DNA of 64,000 nucleotides, from assembly GCF_025147485.1 (NCBI RefSeq), contig NZ_CP102263.1, positions 943,501 through 1,007,500 on the forward strand. The letters are read 5' to 3'. This document shows positions 10,790 through 61,770 of the stretch, one piece after another. Position 1 is the first letter of the stretch. The number at the start of each line of letters is the position of its first letter. Under the pieces are notes generated by a model. That model made no database searches, was not told the DNA's origin, and saw only the letters and a list, made by a program, of their open reading frames with translations. The translations under genes and the position numbers were made by a program. This DNA comes from Bacteroides uniformis. Lineage in GTDB: Bacteria; Bacteroidota; Bacteroidia; Bacteroidales; Bacteroidaceae.

Positions 10790-11024
10790 TTATCGTCCAA
10801 CACAAAGCATAAATCATTGATTATAAAATAAATATATTGAATTAGAATCTACCGTCACCAGCTACCCGCAGTTAGGTTATCTATATTAATATCGTAATTT
10901 AGCAGCAGAAACGGAAATTCATTAGAGGAAATTACAATGAATAAGGCAAGAGTTTCGGATTTAGAATCAGAAGTTAGGATTGAAACCTCTTTACATGGTG
11001 AAAAGGGAAAATCACCCATCTTCC

Positions 11025-11236
11025 GTGCCTATGCAGAGTGTATCTCGTGCCTGCGCAAAATGTCTTTTGTGCCTATGAAATCTTAGAATAAAGGATTTGT
11101 TCGCAAAAATAAAGCCTTTGTTTCTATAACTAAAGCCTTTATTCATAGAAATAAATCCTTTATTCTAAGATTGCGTCGCATCGAAACGGACTTTGCACCC
11201 CATATCGTTTATGTTTGCGTAGGGAGCAGGTTGCAA
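11025..11236. repeat. Phased 21/22-bp degenerate repeat array
   Basis: Three blocks are seen. GTGCCT(A/G) starts at 11025, 11047 and 11069 (22-bp steps). (A/a)(A/C)TAAA(G/T)(C/G)(C/A)(T)TT starts at 11087, 11108, 11129 and 11150 (21-bp steps). TTGC(G/A) starts at 11171, 11193 and 11215 (22-bp steps). Within a block the first 6-12 bases are conserved and the rest drifts; the word changes between blocks while the period stays. The step equals two DNA turns. There is no constant repeat plus unique spacer as in CRISPR. Role unknown; operator array, RNA structure or slippage product are all possible. Confidence 0.8.
11081..11170. repeat. 18-bp perfect inverted repeat enclosing the 21-bp block
   Basis: The arms 11081-11098 and 11153-11170 are exact reverse complements, separated by 54 nt. 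Inside, TTTCTAT (11121-11127) can pair with ATAGAAA (11145-11151). If transcribed the region could fold into a long branched hairpin. The symmetry is partly a consequence of the near-palindromic AATAAAG/CTTTATT word of the array. Confidence 0.8.
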
Positions 11237-29405: not shown

Positions 29406-31253
29406 ATGGCAAACGACATGATGGTCAAAGAACTGGAGCAAGTGGTAGTCCGCTTCTCCGGAGACTCCGGCGATGGTATGCAGCTCGCCGGCAACATCTT
29501 TTCAACAGTTTCGGCTACCGTGGGCAATGATATCAGTACATTCCCCGACTATCCGGCAGATATCCGCGCCCCGCAAGGCTCACTCACCGGTGTTTCCGGT
29601 TTTCAGGTACATATCGGTGCAGAGAAAGTCTATACCCCAGGTGACAAATGCGACGTATTGGTAGCGATGAACGCCGCCGCACTGAAAACCCAATATAAGT
29701 TTGCTAAATCCACTGCTTGTATCATCATCGATACAGATGCTTTCCAGAAGTCAGACTTGGAAAAGGCCGCTTTCAAGACCGATAATCCGATAGAGGAAAT
29801 GGGTATTAAGCAGGATGTCATCGCCGCCCCCATCTCGAAGATGGTGAAAGACTGCCTTGCCGACACCGGAATGGACAACAAGTCCATGCTGAAATGCCGC
29901 AATATGTTTGCAGTAGGCCTGGTATGCTGGCTGTTCAACCGCGATCTGAAAATAGCCGAAGATTTCATCCGCGAGAAATTCGCCAAAAAGCCCGAAATTG
30001 CCGGGGCAAATATCAAGGTCATCCATGCAGGATATGACTACGGACACAACACCCATGCTTCCGTAGCCCATACATATAAGATTGAAAGTAAGACTACCGT
30101 TCCCGGCAGATACATGGATATCACGGGGAACAAAGCAACTGCTTACGGTTTCATCGCCGCAGCTGAAAAGGCTGGCTTGAAGCTGTTCCTCGGCTCCTAT
30201 CCCATTACTCCGGCAACCGATGTACTGCACGAACTCTCCAAGCACAAGTCTCTGGGCGTGATGACCGTGCAATGCGAAGACGAGATTTCCGGTTGCGCCA
30301 CTTCTATCGGCGCCGCTTTTGCAGGTGCGCTGGCTGTGACCTCCACTTCCGGTCCCGGTGTCTGCCTGAAATCGGAAGCTATGAACCTGGCAGTCATTAC
30401 AGAACTTCCGCTGGTTGTGCTCGACGTGCAACGTGGCGGTCCTTCTACCGGTCTGCCCACCAAGTCAGAGCAGACAGACTTGTTGCAGGCATTGTTCGGC
30501 CGCAACGGTGAAAGCCCAATGCCCGTCATCGCCGCCTCTTCACCCACAAGCTGTTTCGACGCAGCCTACATGGCAAGCAAAATTGCACTGGAGCACATGA
30601 CCCCGGTCGTATTGCTGACCGACGGCTTTGTTGCCAATGGCTCCGGCGCCTGGAAGCTGCCCAAACTGGCAGACTATCCCGCCATCACCCCTCCCTACGT
30701 GACTTCCGAAATGAAGGACAACTATACTCCGTACAAACGCAATCCCGAAACAGGTGTCCGCTATTGGGCCATTCCCGGACAAGAAGGCTATATGCACATC
30801 CTCGGCGGTCTGGAGAAAGACAGCAATACCGGTGCCATCTCCACCGATCCCGAAAACCATGACTTGATGTGCCACCTGCGTGCCGAGAAGGTTGCCAAAA
30901 TCCCCGTACCTGATGTAGAAGTGCAAGGCTGTGCAGACGATGCCGATTTGCTGATTGTCGGTTTCGGCGGTACATACGGCCACTTGTATTCGGCCATGGA
31001 AGAGATGAACAAGGCAGGCAAGAAGGTTGCCCTCGCCCACTTCACTTATCTGAATCCGCTCCCCAAGAACACGGAAACCGTTCTGAAGAAGTACAAGAAG
31101 GTGGTAGTTGCCGAACAGAATCTCGGACAATTTGCAGGTTATCTACGTATGAAGATAGACAACTTCACCCCGTACCAGTTCAACGAAGTCAAAGGACAAC
31201 CGTTCGTCGTTGCCGAGCTGGTCGCAGCGTTCAATAAATTAATTGATAATTGA
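29406..31253 (+). CDS. korA: 2-oxoacid:ferredoxin oxidoreductase, alpha subunit (KorA-type)
   Basis: This 615-residue subunit fuses the gamma and alpha domains of 2-oxoglutarate (or related 2-oxoacid) ferredoxin oxidoreductase, which makes acyl-CoA, CO2 and reduced ferredoxin. The gamma domain (about 8-195) begins VVRFSGDSGDGMQLAGNIFS. The alpha part begins near 220 (ITGNKATAYGFIAAAEKAGL) and holds GSYPITPATDVLHELSK, ISGCATSIGAAFAGALAVTS and QRGGPSTGLPTKSEQTDL. These are diagnostic for KorA. The beta subunit follows 99 nt downstream, making the two-subunit enzyme. Substrate preference is by family, so the symbol is likely rather than certain. The stop codon lies in an inverted-repeat element. 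Confidence 0.93.
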   Translation: MANDMMVKELEQVVVRFSGDSGDGMQLAGNIFSTVSATVGNDISTFPDYPADIRAPQGSLTGVSGFQVHIGAEKVYTPGDKCDVLVAMNAAALKTQYKFAKSTACIIIDTDAFQKSDLEKAAFKTDNPIEEMGIKQDVIAAPISKMVKDCLADTGMDNKSMLKCRNMFAVGLVCWLFNRDLKIAEDFIREKFAKKPEIAGANIKVIHAGYDYGHNTHASVAHTYKIESKTTVPGRYMDITGNKATAYGFIAAAEKAGLKLFLGSYPITPATDVLHELSKHKSLGVMTVQCEDEISGCATSIGAAFAGALAVTSTSGPGVCLKSEAMNLAVITELPLVVLDVQRGGPSTGLPTKSEQTDLLQALFGRNGESPMPVIAASSPTSCFDAAYMASKIALEHMTPVVLLTDGFVANGSGAWKLPKLADYPAITPPYVTSEMKDNYTPYKRNPETGVRYWAIPGQEGYMHILGGLEKDSNTGAISTDPENHDLMCHLRAEKVAKIPVPDVEVQGCADDADLLIVGFGGTYGHLYSAMEEMNKAGKKVALAHFTYLNPLPKNTETVLKKYKKVVVAEQNLGQFAGYLRMKIDNFTPYQFNEVKGQPFVVAELVAAFNKLIDN

Positions 31254-31343
31254 CAGTTGACAATTGATAATAACCATGCGTAATATGCGGATTATCAATG
31301 ACCAGCCACCAATTATCAACTATCATTTATCAACTATCAATTA
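31241..31343. repeat. AT-rich inverted repeat between korA and korB
   Basis: AATTGATAATTGACAGTTGA-type sequence at 31241-31270 is mirrored by ATTATCAACTATCATTTATC-type sequence at 31312-31343. The left arm contains the korA stop codon. Such low-complexity palindromes are common between Bacteroides genes; here the pair sits inside an operon. Confidence 0.7.
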
Positions 31344-52949: not shown

Positions 52950-52994
52950 AAAGGTGAAAATGGAAAATGATAAATACTTTCTATTTTCACCTTT
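52950..52994. repeat. Inverted repeat between XRE gene and synthetase gene
   Basis: Arms 52950-52966 and 52978-52994 pair at 16 of 17 positions with an 11-nt loop. The following CAACTTTCCACTTTCAACTT is the same low-complexity family. The hairpin could attenuate the operon. Confidence 0.7.
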
Positions 52995-53021
52995 CAACTT
53001 TCCACTTTCAACTTCCACATC

Positions 53022-54775: not shown

Positions 54776-55265
54776 ATTTTTCTTCTTTTTCCGGATACTT
54801 CATATTCTCCTCTTTCATCTGTTCCAAGACCTCATGCAGGTATTTGGCAGACTCCCATTTAGCCATCGGAAGGTCGTGGAGCAGGTAGTTGCCGCAATCT
54901 TGCGGAGCGGCACCGGGGACTTCACCTTCATATTCGGCAACAAAGCGGAAGGTGTCCTGCATCAGTGTCAGTATGTCCTGCGGCTTCAAGTCACCTTTCA
55001 TCAGCAGATAATTACCGGTGAGGCAGCCCATGGGGCCCCAATAGATAATCTTGTCCTGCCACTGCGGGTCGTTGCGCAGGTAGGTGGCGGCAAGGTGTTC
55101 GATGGTGTGCAGAGCACCTTGTCCCAAAGCAGGCTCACGATTGGGCTCTTTCATACGGATGTCGAAAGTAGTGACTGTTTCTCCGTTCACTTCATCCTGG
55201 CGGGATATGTAAATGCCGCGCAACAAACGGATGTGGTCGATTGTAAAACTAGGAATCTTCTTCAT
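54774..55265 (-). CDS. luxS: S-ribosylhomocysteine lyase LuxS
   Basis: This 163-residue metalloenzyme splits S-ribosylhomocysteine to homocysteine and DPD, the precursor of AI-2. The metal ligands are H53 and H57 in HTIEH and C124 in QDCGNY. The catalytic C81 is in GPMGCLTGNY, and E56 is the general base. The length is typical. It follows pfs 24 nt downstream, so the operon carries both steps from S-adenosylhomocysteine. The first codons and leader are nearly identical to those of the YfhO gene 950 bp away on the opposite strand. Confidence 0.96.
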   Translation of the reverse strand: MKKIPSFTIDHIRLLRGIYISRQDEVNGETVTTFDIRMKEPNREPALGQGALHTIEHLAATYLRNDPQWQDKIIYWGPMGCLTGNYLLMKGDLKPQDILTLMQDTFRFVAEYEGEVPGAAPQDCGNYLLHDLPMAKWESAKYLHEVLEQMKEENMKYPEKEEK

Positions 55266-55270
55266 GAGTT

Positions 55271-55293
55271 ATGAGTTATAAGTTATGAGTTAT
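55271..55293 (-). repeat. Leader repeat upstream of luxS (inverted copy of 56218-56240)
   Basis: On the minus strand the 23 bases read ATAACTCATAACTTATAACT then CAT, exactly the sequence at 56218-56240 on the plus strand. An extra ATAACTC unit follows before the luxS ATG. The arm overlaps the last codon of pfs. Confidence 0.85.
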
Positions 55294-56217: not shown

Positions 56218-56240
56218 ATAACTCATAACTTATAACTCAT
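56218..56240 (+). repeat. Leader repeat upstream of YfhO gene (inverted copy of 55271-55293)
   Basis: The 23-base unit ATAACTCATAACTTATAACT plus CAT runs into the start codon, so both luxS and this gene begin ...AACTCATGAAGAAG. The two arms flank the pfs gene and its promoter. Confidence 0.85.
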
Positions 56241-58749
56241 GAAGAAGCTTCTTCCCGATCTTATTGCCATCTTGGCATTCGTCCTCCTTTCCTTCGCCTA
56301 CTTCTTCCCGGCGGATATAGAAAACCGTATTCTCTTTCAGCACGACACGGCTGCAGGAGCAGGGGCAGGACAAGAAGTCAAGGAGTATTACGAACAGACG
56401 GGCGAACGCAGCCGTTGGACAAACTCGCTGTTCGGCGGTATGCCCATGTATCAGATAGCCCCTTCGTATGACTCCACCAAGTCACTGCAGTGGGTACAGA
56501 AAGCCTACCAACTCTTCCTGCCCGACTATGTGTGCCTCACATTCATGCTGATGCTCGGCTTCTACATCCTGCTGCGCGTCTTCGGCATACCGGTCTGGCT
56601 GGCCGGACTGGGCGGTATCATGTGGGCATTCTCGTCCTATTTCTTCATCCTGATATCTGCCGGACACATCTGGAAGTTCATCACCCTTGCCTACGTGCCG
56701 CCCACCATAGCAGGCATTGTGCTCGCCTATCGTGGGAAACTGCTGTGGGGAGGCATCCTCACCGCCTTGTTCGTGGCCCTGCAAATCACCTCGAACCACG
56801 TGCAGATGTCCTATTACTTCTTCTTCGTCATCCTTTTCTTTGTGGGAGCCTACTTCGAGAAAGCATGGCGTACCAAGACATTGCCCCAGTTCTTCAAGGC
56901 AAGTGCCGTACTGATTGTGGCAGCCCTCGTCGGCATAGCCGCCAACGTATCCAACCTCTATCACACCTATGCCTACAGCAAAGAAACCATGCGCGGCAAA
57001 AGCGAACTGGTGCAGACCGGCGACGCTGCCAAGCAGACCAGTAGCGGGCTGGACCGCGACTACATCACCCAGTGGAGCTACGGCATCGACGAAACACTGA
57101 CTCTGCTGGTGCCCAACTTCAAAGGCGGAGCATCTGCCGCCCTCAGCCAGAGTGAAACTGCCATGAGCAAGGCAAACCCGATGTACAGCAGTCTGTACGG
57201 CTCACTGACACAATATTTCGGTACCCAGCCCATGACGTCGGGTCCCGTCTACGTCGGAGCATTCGTCTTGTTTCTGTTCGTACTGGGATGCTTCATCGTG
57301 AAAGGACCGTTGAAGTGGGCATTGATAGGAGCCACCTTCTTCTCCATCGTCTTGTCCTGGGGCAAGAACTTCATGCCGCTGACGGATTTCTTCATCGATT
57401 ACGTCCCGTTGTACAACAAGTTCCGCGCCGTGTCCTCCATCCTTGTCATAGCAGAGTTCACGATACCTTTGCTGGCTATCTTTGCCCTGAAACGCCTGCT
57501 CGAAGAGCCGGAAATCTTAAAACAGGAAAAGAAGCCCCTCGGCATCAGCCTGCTGCTCACTGCAGGCATCGCCCTGCTGCTTGCCATTGCCCCGGGCAGC
57601 ATCGGCTCCGGCTACGTGCCCGCCCAAGAGGCACAGATGCTGCAGAATGCCGTCAACCAGCAGATGATACCCGCCAACGAACTCTCCGACATCCTTGCCA
57701 ACTTGGGAGAGATGCGTGCCGAACTCGTCAGCAGCGACGCCCTGCGTAGCTTCATCATCATAGGCATCGGCTGCAGCCTGCTCTGGCTCTATGCAAGCGG
57801 CAAGCTGCGTAGCTCGCTGACCATTGCAGGTATCACCATACTCTGCCTGGCAGATATGTGGGGGGTCAACAAGCGCTATCTGAATGATGCCCAGTTCGTG
57901 CCCCACTCCATCCGTACGGAAACCTTCACCAAGACGAATACAGACGAGCTGATACTACAAGATACCAGCTTGGACTATCGTGTATTGAACTTTGCCACCA
58001 GCACCTTCGATGACAACAACACCTCCTACTGGCACAAAAGCGTCGGCGGTTATCACCCGGCCAAGCTGCGTCGCTACCAGGAAATGATAGAGCATCACAT
58101 CTCTCCCGAAATGCAGGCGGCCTACAAGGCCATTGCCACCGCCGGAGGTGAGATGGACAGCGTGGATGCCAATAAGTTCCGCATACTGAACATGCTGAAC
58201 ACCAAATACTTCATCTTCCCTGCAGGACAGCAAAGACAAACCGTTCCCATCCTCAACCCGCACGCCTACGGCAATGCATGGTTTGTAAACAAGGTGCAGT
58301 ATGTGAACAACGCCAACGAAGAGATTGACGCCCTGGACAGCATCATACCCACAGAGACAGCCGTAGTGGATGCCCGCTTCAAGGATGTGCTGAAAGGTAC
58401 CACGGAAAGTTATAAAGACAGCCTCTCCAGCATCCGCCTGACAAGTTACACACCTAACCGCCTGACGTACGAAACGAACAATGCCCAAGACGGTATTGCC
58501 GTATTCTCCGAAATCTATTATCCGGACGGCTGGCACGTAACCATCGACGGACAGCCTGCCGAACTGGCACGCGCCGACTATATCCTGCGCACAATGTATG
58601 TTCCTGCCGGACAGCACACCATCGAAATGCGCTTTGACCCCACCAGCCTGCACGTGACGGAAGGCATCGCCTACGGAGCACTGGCGCTGCTGGTGATAGG
58701 TATCATCGTGGCAGTGCTGATAGCCAAAAGGAAGTATGTAAAGGCATAA
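56239..58749 (+). CDS. YfhO-family polytopic membrane protein
   Basis: This 836-residue inner-membrane protein has about 12 hydrophobic helices: the first at 6-24 (LIAILAFVLLSFAYFFP), then a cluster from about 85 to 225, several from 330 to 450, and others near 480-540. A large extracytoplasmic beta-rich C-terminal part (about 570-800) precedes a last helix (ALALLVIGIIVAVLIAKRKY). The NSLFGGMPMYQI and GWHVTIDGQPAELARADYIL features match the YfhO family, related to GT-C-type glycosyltransferases that decorate envelope polymers. Donor and acceptor are unknown. Confidence 0.85.
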   Translation: MKKLLPDLIAILAFVLLSFAYFFPADIENRILFQHDTAAGAGAGQEVKEYYEQTGERSRWTNSLFGGMPMYQIAPSYDSTKSLQWVQKAYQLFLPDYVCLTFMLMLGFYILLRVFGIPVWLAGLGGIMWAFSSYFFILISAGHIWKFITLAYVPPTIAGIVLAYRGKLLWGGILTALFVALQITSNHVQMSYYFFFVILFFVGAYFEKAWRTKTLPQFFKASAVLIVAALVGIAANVSNLYHTYAYSKETMRGKSELVQTGDAAKQTSSGLDRDYITQWSYGIDETLTLLVPNFKGGASAALSQSETAMSKANPMYSSLYGSLTQYFGTQPMTSGPVYVGAFVLFLFVLGCFIVKGPLKWALIGATFFSIVLSWGKNFMPLTDFFIDYVPLYNKFRAVSSILVIAEFTIPLLAIFALKRLLEEPEILKQEKKPLGISLLLTAGIALLLAIAPGSIGSGYVPAQEAQMLQNAVNQQMIPANELSDILANLGEMRAELVSSDALRSFIIIGIGCSLLWLYASGKLRSSLTIAGITILCLADMWGVNKRYLNDAQFVPHSIRTETFTKTNTDELILQDTSLDYRVLNFATSTFDDNNTSYWHKSVGGYHPAKLRRYQEMIEHHISPEMQAAYKAIATAGGEMDSVDANKFRILNMLNTKYFIFPAGQQRQTVPILNPHAYGNAWFVNKVQYVNNANEEIDALDSIIPTETAVVDARFKDVLKGTTESYKDSLSSIRLTSYTPNRLTYETNNAQDGIAVFSEIYYPDGWHVTIDGQPAELARADYILRTMYVPAGQHTIEMRFDPTSLHVTEGIAYGALALLVIGIIVAVLIAKRKYVKA

Positions 58750-58775
58750 GAACAAATATCATATCATTCCCCCAC

Positions 58776-58830
58776 AAGCACCCGACGCATTCCGCTATTC
58801 ATACCCTGATACGGAATGCGTCGAGTGCTT
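58776..58830 (+). terminator. 19-bp inverted repeat after the YfhO gene
   Basis: Arms 58776-58794 and 58812-58830 pair at 18 of 19 positions around a 17-nt loop, 27 nt after the stop. There is no T-run, so termination is plausible but not certain. The phased repeat array starts immediately after it. Confidence 0.55.
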
Positions 58831-59088
58831 ATGTCCGTTCCGTTATCCCCTCATGTTTGTTCTGTCATTCCCTTATGTCTGTTCTGTCAACCCCTATATA
58901 TTGATGAAAAACCACGGCTGTGAAGCATATTCTTCACAGCTGTGGCACGTCTTCTTCACCGCTGTGGGAAAGGCGTACCACAGCCGTGCGCACATGATAA
59001 ACCCAAAGGCTTCTCAAGACAAACCACCGTGCAAAACACAACAGAAGCCTATGTAGCACACAACGGAAGCCTATGCAAGAGACAAGAA
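58831..59088. repeat. Phased 22-bp degenerate repeat array
   Basis: ATGT(C/T)(C/T)GTTC(C/T)GT units start at 58831, 58853 and 58875. CAC(G/A/C)GC(T/C)GTG units start at 58913, 58935, 58957 and 58979, with the second an exact palindrome CACAGCTGTG. Two weaker 22-bp units (ACCCAAAGG at 59001, ACCACCGTG at 59023) follow, then AAGCCTATG at 59045 and 59067. All steps within and between the last three blocks are exactly 22 bp; one 16-bp step (58897-58912) separates the first block. The region has no plausible ORF. Same architecture as 11025-11236. Confidence 0.85.
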
Positions 59089-59109
59089 AGCCCGGTCAGA
59101 TGCGCAAAA

Positions 59110-59141
59110 AACCGTTTCTACCCTCCCGGGTAAAAACGGTT
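59110..59141 (+). terminator. Hairpin downstream of the phased array
   Basis: AACCGTTT/AAACGGTT and TACCC/GGGTA form a two-part stem (59110-59123 with 59128-59141) around a TCCC loop with a small internal mismatch. No T-run follows. 59142-59390 shows nothing recognisable. Confidence 0.5.
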
Positions 59142-59390
59142 CAAGTCAATAATACATGAAAAAACGCTATTTAGAGAGAGTCTCTTCTATAACGGAATGG
59201 TTCTCTTCCTTCTTCACTCATCATCAGCAGTTCTCCGAACTGACATCAAAGTTAGGGAAGCATAACAAGAACAACAAATAGAATCTACGAAAAGGCATAT
59301 CTCATCGACAGAACGGAAAAGAATGAACCCTACAATAGGGAAAAGAATGAAAAAAAAGCTATAAACAGTCGGCAGAACGATATATTTCAG

Positions 59391-59398
59391 TAACTTTG
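59391..59398 (+). promoter_or_regulatory. -7 element of rbfA
   Basis: TAACTTTG matches TAnnTTTG, 45 nt before the ATG at 59444. No clear -33. Confidence 0.55.
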
Positions 59399-59443
59399 CT
59401 AACGTGAAAACAGGCTGCACCCCAGCATAAAAAAATGAACAGT

Positions 59444-59776
59444 ATGGAAACTACCAGACAAAATAAAATAGCCCGTCTCCTGCAGAAGGAACTGAGTGAT
59501 ATCTTCTTGTTGCAAACCAAGTCCATGCCCGGCATACTGATTTCCGTCAGTGCCGTACGCATCAGCCCCGACATGAGCGTGGCACGCGCTTATCTCAGTA
59601 TATTCCCCTCGGAGAAAAGCGAAGAAATAGTCAAGAACATCAACGGAAACATGAAATCCATACGCTTTGAACTGGGTACCCGCGTACGCCACCAACTACG
59701 CATTATCCCCGAACTGAAGTTCTTCGTAGACGACTCACTGGACTATCTGGAACGAATTGATGAACTGCTGAAATAA
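59444..59776 (+). CDS. rbfA: Ribosome-binding factor A
   Basis: This 110-residue 16S maturation factor starts at 59444 (METTRQNKIARLLQKELSDI); an ATG at 59435 adds only three residues. The KH-type core is visible: ISVSAVRISPDMSVARAYLS, FPSEKSEEIV and RFELGTRVRHQLRIIPELKF ending FVDDSLDYLERIDELL. The length fits RbfA. Its stop overlaps the next start as TAATG, so translation of the permease is coupled. Confidence 0.94.
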   Translation: METTRQNKIARLLQKELSDIFLLQTKSMPGILISVSAVRISPDMSVARAYLSIFPSEKSEEIVKNINGNMKSIRFELGTRVRHQLRIIPELKFFVDDSLDYLERIDELLK

Positions 59777-61649: not shown

Positions 61650-61660
61650 TTTGTTAATGG

Positions 61661-61770
61661 ATTATAGGTTAGGGATAAGGGATTAGGGGTTAGGGGTTAG
61701 TTCTGCGCACAATTATTAATTAATCATTAACCGCTAATCCCTAACCCCTTATCCTTAATCCCTTATCCTA
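61661..61770. repeat. GGGGTTAG-type inverted repeat between pyk and methyltransferase gene
   Basis: AGGTTAGGGATAAGGGATTA and further GGGGTTAG units (61661-61700) face CTAATCCCTAACCCCTTATC and further units (61734-61770). The right arm contains the pyk stop codon (61768-61770). Same word family as 54687-54775. Confidence 0.8.

Follow-up and report, generated by a model that had tools for sequence, protein, structure and literature searches.

A phase-locked 22-bp array between yfhO and rbfA of Bacteroides uniformis belongs to a class of dispersed intergenic repeats

The array and its neighbours

The window, by which we mean the whole 64-kb stretch of Bacteroides uniformis DNA analysed here, contains a periodic element between two plus-strand genes. 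The genes, the parts of the element and the neighbouring features are as follows.

56239–58749, plus strand: upstream gene, an ORF of 836 aa for a YfhO-like membrane protein (putative name)
58773–58833, plus strand: hairpin 3′ of the yfhO stop codon, with 22-nt arms (58773–58794 and 58812–58833) that are 91% complementary
58819–59092, no strand assigned: whole 22-bp phase-locked element, consisting of left block, core and right block in one register (lag-22 identity, mirrored blocks)
58819–58906, plus strand: left block of about four 22-bp rows, with the clearest units at 58831–58895 (ATGTCTGTTCTGTCATCCCCTC) (TRF, repeat copies, row layout)
58913–58922, no strand assigned: core word 1, CACGGCTGTG, a palindrome with one mismatched pair
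58935–58944, no strand assigned: core word 2, CACAGCTGTG, a perfect palindrome
58957–58966, no strand assigned: core word 3, CACCGCTGTG, a palindrome with one mismatched pair
58979–58988, no strand assigned: core word 4, CACAGCCGTG, a palindrome with one mismatched pair
58995–59092, minus strand: right block, a degenerate inverted copy of the left block, with the clearest units at 59030–59092 (TRF, mirrored identity)
59100–59245, minus strand: putative sRNA convergent to yfhO (conserved 41-nt stretch, hairpin and T run, TAnnTTTG box, RNA fold z)
59435–59776, plus strand: rbfA (putative name), an ORF of 113 aa

The element at 58819–59092 matches itself at lag 22 with an identity of 0.544, compared with 0.241 and 0.247 at lags 21 and 23, respectively (40% at lag 44). 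None of 2000 dinucleotide shuffles (0/2000) matched this identity, whether at lag 22 or anywhere in the range of lags 5–79. TRF detected a period of 22 at 58831–58895, with three copies, and again at 59030–59092, and the right block contains repeat copies at 59036 and 59058 that are 82% alike. With 58950.5 as the mirror axis, the left and right blocks match at 35 of 78 positions at phase 0, which is the best of 23 offsets (15–30 matches at the others). The preliminary description placed units at 58831, 58853 and 58875, which the TRF copies bear out, followed by a second run in exact 22-bp steps. The core words do start at 58913, 58935, 58957 and 58979 as claimed, but the units at 59001 and 59023 are weak, and a clear repeat is seen again at 59030–59092. 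Of the four units said to carry a self-complementary CAC-GC-GTG core, one is perfect (CACAGCTGTG) and each of the other three has a mismatched pair. The phase was also said to persist where the words switch; the three blocks indeed share a single register, and their 22-bp spacing is compatible with sites on one helix face.

Seven CACNGCNGTG words occur within the window, and four of these form the core (58913–58988). The dyad test averaged over all 11 units of the array was not significant (p = 0.139; 0.12 in the family table) because the blocks carry different words. Therefore, the dyad claim rests on the core together with its word family.

The hairpin described as lying directly before the array at the end of yfhO is present, and it overlaps the first array unit by three bases. 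The array is also upstream of rbfA, a gene with a relative in 146 of the 149 genus genomes, but it does not have a promoter location. The sequence TAACTTTG at 59391–59398 (a position read from the sequence), which we take to be a Bacteroides-type −7 box in a promoter-like region of rbfA, is about 300 bp from the array, with a probable minus-strand sRNA between them. An rbfA-specific operator was rejected, because relatives carry other words or no array at the rbfA locus.

The minus-strand sRNA at 59100–59245 is probable on several features. It contains a conserved 41-nt stretch at 59145–59185 (GTCAATAATACATGAAAAAACGCTATTTAGAGAGAGTCTCT on the plus strand), and a 30-nt part of it gave 29 matches at no more than three mismatches in relatives, corresponding to about 19 distinct Bacteroidaceae loci once repeat fetches were removed. 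A strong terminator-like hairpin (59110–59141) is followed by a minus-strand T run (plus-strand A run at 59106–59111), and the 146-nt stretch has an RNA fold z of −4.04. At its putative start, on the minus strand at 59254–59247, lies a sequence that we take to be a TAnnTTTG box. The putative sRNA has no Rfam match. If it is real, the array sits between two convergent 3′ ends, those of yfhO and of the sRNA.

A class of 22-bp arrays in Bacteroides intergenic regions

We scanned the intergenic regions of at least 60 bp in 1.66 of the 4.63 Mb of the window's genome, using a lag self-alignment score of at least 12 and three shuffles. A simple rule took ORFs of at least 240 nt as genes; it leaves sRNAs and small genes in the intergenic fraction, and some arrays are concealed by chance ORFs. 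A lag-22 array was carried by 44 of 585 regions, compared with 0.3 per shuffle. The same scan gave 6, 10, 16 and 5 regions at lags 20, 21, 23 and 24, respectively, and 26 at lag 44. If the part read is typical, extrapolation leads to about 120 array loci per genome. In the first 864 kb read, 8-mer matches at lag 22 numbered 145 in intergenic DNA and 35 in the far larger coding part.

Similar arrays are found in relatives (genomes and loci are designated by G and L numbers, respectively). At 80 rbfA loci of other Bacteroidaceae, which are partly orthologous to one another so that pooled counts and orientation tests concern non-independent loci, 8-mer matches occurred at lag 22 in 56 intergenic regions, at lag 21 in 26, at lag 23 in 17, and at lags 20 and 24 in 10 each. 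Lag-22 arrays were detected in 5 of 72 intergenic regions of G123 and 6 of 46 of G127. In three Bacteroides genomes, 55 of 703 intergenic regions (about 8%) have such an array, compared with 6 of 304 in eight genomes of the order and class (Fisher p = 1.5e-4). The class is thus enriched in Bacteroides, and the outgroups are not empty of it. We found no description of such arrays in Bacteroides in a literature search of mostly open-access papers.

Pooling gave 107 arrays from 1297 intergenic regions, and the counts of dyads, families, inverted repeats and orientations exclude gaps with strong 7-bp repeats. The pitch is 22 bp in 81 of the 107 arrays, 23 bp in 17 and 21 bp in 9. Word families include TGCAGT (seven arrays in the part read), GAAACAnnnTGTTC, AGTCGTATAC and others, and 42 of the 107 arrays are singletons. 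One family can contain both 22- and 23-bp steps; the same-strand spacings of TTGCAGT in the window's genome are 22 (11 cases), 23 (4), 32 (2), 33 (4), 44 (7) and 45 bp (5). With the gap left free between 0 and 16, 156 TGCAG-family dyad pairs were counted in six genomes, and all 75 pairs listed, which come from four genomes other than the window's own, have a gap of 5, corresponding to 22 bp. For CACRGCYGTG, with the gap free between 0 and 25, 103 pairs were counted in eight of nine genomes, and all 75 listed (from six genomes) have a gap of 12, which again gives the 22-bp pitch. The reversed-pattern control was 0 in every genome of both searches. In G088, CACTGCGGTG-like words are all at 23 bp among the pairs listed, and in G076 the CAC core word is combined with a different spacer word at an unchanged pitch. 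The word may change, but the pitch mostly does not.

In a column-shuffle dyad test, 26 of 49 arrays of the window's genome reached p ≤ 0.05, compared with 7.5% of 200 controls. Significant dyads were present in 53 of the 107 pooled arrays as tandem dyads with array-specific words, and about half of the arrays have no significant dyad. Long inverted repeats with a score of at least 12 were found in 60 of the 107 arrays and in 10 of 107 length-matched control segments of the window's genome; L032, for example, has imperfect arms of 47 bp, and an array of G127 has almost perfect arms of 29 bp. A weak half-step similarity at lag 11 (0.292 vs 0.239, p = 0.034) counts in favour of the protein-bound lattice discussed below. 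No common 11-bp GC pattern was observed across words, the power (0.079) being slightly below the null (0.089, p = 0.017). Therefore, a word-blind wrapping protein such as gyrase is unsupported, and this candidate was rejected.

The word family of the window's core recurs elsewhere in Bacteroides at the 22-bp spacing, as the preliminary description led us to look for: CACNGCNGTG pairs 11–13 bases apart occur in 23 of the 149 genus genomes, and the reversed control gave 0 in all but one. Twenty CAC elements, chosen from pattern matches and not a random sample, were fetched from four genomes (seven of eight listed places in G090, four of four in both G021 and G085, and five in G127, where a sixth is also known). 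Each has two to four exact CAC[AG]GC[CT]GTG words, and every consecutive step is 22 or 44 bp. At the 44-bp steps, the middle word has a mismatch; the two-word element is cut by an IS-like end. The preliminary description had set its view against a spacing that drifts freely between strains. In relatives, the CAC words keep to their step, although arrays of 21 and 23 bp exist. In four elements laid out in rows, the core is flanked on the left by a word near TACCGGTA and on the right by its reverse complement, and flank and core words remain in nearly one register over about 10–13 rows. Separately, an IS-like end (GAATGCTTAC...) was observed to interrupt the CAC elements L259, L267, L268 and L270, and CAC lattices may be preferred insertion targets.

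Pairwise identity across 12 CAC elements (11 fetched loci and the window) is 0.91 for core words and 0.47 for spacers, whose length is fixed. The spacer consensus RNRAGATCTYNY is itself a dyad, but single spacers show no excess of self-complementarity (3.5–5.2 of 12, compared with 5.0–5.4 between spacers of different elements), and a dyad in individual spacers was rejected because it is present only in the consensus. In a test that kept one row (G127x) set one base off, the core spacers S1 and S3 did not covary (p = 0.61) and the flank blocks paired weakly within elements (p = 0.015). Selection for a long hairpin on the core was rejected from the lack of S1/S3 covariation, though the flanks pair weakly.

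Two ortholog pairs bear on the changes of array length expected between strains. The lattices of L257 and L261 differ by one exact 22-bp unit, and those of L256 and L260 have no indel, so that across the two pairs the sole lattice indel is a whole unit. Each pair has a single base difference in the 76-bp core. The flank blocks are not clearly conserved: their divergence relative to the outside is 0.076 vs 0.031 in one pair and 0.030 vs 0.068 in the other.

Possible roles and origins of the arrays

We tentatively favour, at a confidence somewhat short of even, the interpretation that the arrays are dispersed intergenic lattice elements with a 22-bp step, whose dyads are bound by cooperative dimers and which have a barrier or architectural role behind gene 3′ ends. 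Short words, with clear dyads in about half of the arrays, are repeated at intervals of two turns of the helix. The window's family has the order block A, core palindromes and inverted block A′, and many arrays are longer inverted repeats overall. Symmetry and step seem to be kept, and the words change between families and blocks. Dimeric sequence-specific proteins would probably occupy one dyad after another along a single face of the duplex, each word family presumably having its own binder. The bound dimers could then contact each other and form a cooperative filament or roadblock that probably acts behind gene 3′ ends, as in the BIMEs of E. coli, which are palindrome clusters bound by gyrase and IHF. 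Such a lattice is favoured by the excess of lag-22 arrays, dyads and inverted repeats over controls, the pitch of the word pairs, the fixed spacer length, the whole-unit length change between orthologs, the lack of a G.U bias on the sense strand and the location of the arrays. Because one genome contains many different words, several binders would be needed, and this counts against such a lattice. Also against it are the spacer dyad that exists only in the consensus, the absence of S1/S3 covariation, the arrays without dyads, the mixed 22- and 23-bp steps, the divergence of the flanks and the occurrence of arrays in divergent gaps. In a more far-reaching form, which we consider unlikely, the arrays would be a geometry-coded, chromatin-like system, in which phase-locked dyads carry a polymerising family of dimers that insulates genes, the words drifting and the pitch being held.

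The main rival explanation, to which we assign a substantial but minority probability, is that the arrays are palindromic repeats of a selfish or neutral kind, similar to REP, MITE or BrickBuilt elements, which some form of transposition or copying has spread. The 22-bp step would be inherited from the copying machinery and have no host function, and the pile-up behind genes would reflect tolerated insertion. The location of the arrays fits this explanation as well as the favoured one. Among gaps of at least 110 bp, arrays are present in 32 of 144 convergent, 23 of 197 divergent and 46 of 545 codirectional gaps; the convergent excess is significant with Fisher p = 2e-5 against codirectional and 0.011 against divergent gaps, the loci not being independent.

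The rbfA locus in other species points in the same direction, because its words differ. Unrelated arrays are present in L003–L006 (three of which are L032–L034) and L042, and no array is present in L007, L012, L013, L015 and L016. L031 has a 21-bp array by eye, with a score of 8 at lag 21, which is below the cut, and 17 at lag 42. The arrays of L033 and L034 score 21 and 13 at lag 22 and were at first missed under chance ORFs. Of 44 rbfA-upstream gaps, 16 score at least 10 at lags 18–26, several of them being weak, AT-rich or N runs, and only L032 and L042 are clear 22-bp arrays (L033 and L034 being hidden by the ORF rule). With unrelated words or none at this locus in other species, the arrays therefore turn over quickly and the class persists.

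Amplification also favours selfish spread. The distribution of word families is patchy, with amplification in some genomes: the TGCAG-family pattern occurs in 20 of the 149 genomes and matches the window's genome 61 times forward and 56 times in reverse. A dispersed unit of about 540 bp is common to six copies in G090, three of them complete and three truncated by IS-like ends. As to MITE features, no clean ends or target-site duplications were discerned in these copies, and long inverted arms occur in many arrays. IS-like ends, inferred from the sequence, are found in 4 of the 20 fetched CAC elements. The single spacers without a dyad and the TTGCAGT steps of 23, 32, 33 and 45 bp in the window's genome are likewise compatible with this origin. 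However, the spacer length is fixed while spacer identity drops to 47%, which is unlike neutral decay. The CAC elements of G127, G021 and G085 are homologous mostly within the lattice and lack common ends, the exceptions being orthologs and a few pairs such as L255 and L262 (416 bp at 70%). PF01797, the REP transposase domain, was not detected in the window's genome, and the control search was positive in 5 of 14 genomes.

It is improbable, in our estimation, that the arrays work as RNA elements, transcribed and folded into hairpins that serve as terminators, RNase III substrates or 3′ UTR stabilisers. Twenty-two base pairs correspond to two turns of A-form RNA, and the long inverted repeats would suit such a role. 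The window array folds moderately better than shuffles on either strand (z of −2.05 on the plus and −2.51 on the minus strand), and 32 of the 48 arrays between codirectional genes lie closer to the upstream stop codon (p = 0.02). However, any dyad array would fold, the window array has no T run after its end, and divergent gaps also hold arrays. At the gathering threshold, Rfam gave only a tRNA in the window and no match in the window array or four related elements; around the array, there were only two sub-threshold matches at chance level.

Selection on the sense RNA would favour GT over AC mismatches. In codirectional arrays, the sense-strand counts are 30 GT and 52 AC in dyads and 22 GT and 26 AC in long arms. 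Sense-strand RNA hairpins were rejected because G.U is not in excess of A.C, and we read the constraint as acting on duplex DNA, which leaves a small probability for a role of RNA. In convergent and divergent gaps, for which no sense strand is defined, the GT/AC counts are 23/20 and 8/14 in dyads and 20/12 and 29/15 in arms, respectively.

The least probable explanation, a mutational product in which polymerase fold-back or slippage at palindromes makes tandem inverted copies of a length set by the machinery, would account for the joint presence of direct and inverted repeats and for the one exact unit gained or lost between orthologs, but the core words are conserved while fixed-length spacers diverge, the blocks are mirrored about the core in the elements laid out, and G076 keeps the core word and pitch with another spacer word.

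Relation to known repeats and other periodic arrays

The nearest published relative that we found is BrickBuilt, a minisatellite/MITE of Porphyromonas gingivalis (PMC4596501). It is intergenic and consists of tandem 23-nt units without spacers in many copies, its copy number varies by repeat units between strains, and long stem-loops are predicted (PMC4596501). One imperfect word occupies 19 loci of a strain, and there are a leader and a tail with small inverted ends (PMC4596501). Both repeats belong to Bacteroidales and are intergenic tandem units without spacers, the period here being 21–23 bp and mostly 22. Unlike BrickBuilt, the Bacteroides arrays have many words, with blocks switched in one register at a pitch of mostly 22 bp, and no common leader or tail was found across their elements, only the G090 copies sharing a larger unit. 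In place of one shared word with a leader and a tail, we found many families, 42 singletons and lattice-confined homology.

The REP and BIME elements of enterobacteria and pseudomonads are clustered intergenic palindromes that prefer 3′ ends and convergent gaps, are targets of IS elements and are bound by gyrase, IHF or Pol I. About half of the Bacteroides arrays similarly consist of intergenically clustered palindromic units. In contrast to REP/BIME, no Y1 (RAYT) transposase was detected, as judged from the missing PF01797 in the window's genome, and a REP/RAYT identity was rejected on this basis. BIMEs are not known to hold an exact helical pitch when their words are unrelated. Tandem operators, iterons and parS-type arrays carry their dyads or repeats on one helix face at intervals of one to two turns; they are single loci tied to one protein, unlike the many words at about 120 loci per genome (extrapolated) observed here. 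A CRISPR array was rejected on geometry, since the core words are 10 bp long and the 12-bp spacers are degenerate and have a consensus.

Among the sampled Bacteroides intergenic regions, about 8% have a 22-bp pitch that is kept across species and unrelated words, which is hard to explain by drift. This pitch suggests that a dominant gut genus has a DNA-binding or copying activity that has escaped notice, and the array class gives a concrete prediction of exact sites at an exact spacing. We regard the arrays as dispersed intergenic repeats of a variant type, with a real chance of something more unusual.

Several other periodic arrays were observed. Another phased array of this class, at 21–22 bp, lies at 11024–11172 of the window, with AATAAAGCCTTTATT words and inverted arms of about 41 bp; two further arrays of the window's genome carry its word. 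Arrays with a 7-bp period (14, 21) and varying words are located in the window at 31240–31343, 52976–53014, 55264–55293 and 61655–61769, some with inverted arms, and lag-14 arrays occupy 20 of the 585 intergenic regions in the genome part read. In a gap common to L039, L044, L045 and L046 (near 1.2–4.1 kb), TACGGA direct repeats follow one another at 11-bp intervals, as in a lattice with a one-turn step; this gap is divergent in the three loci for which it was listed.
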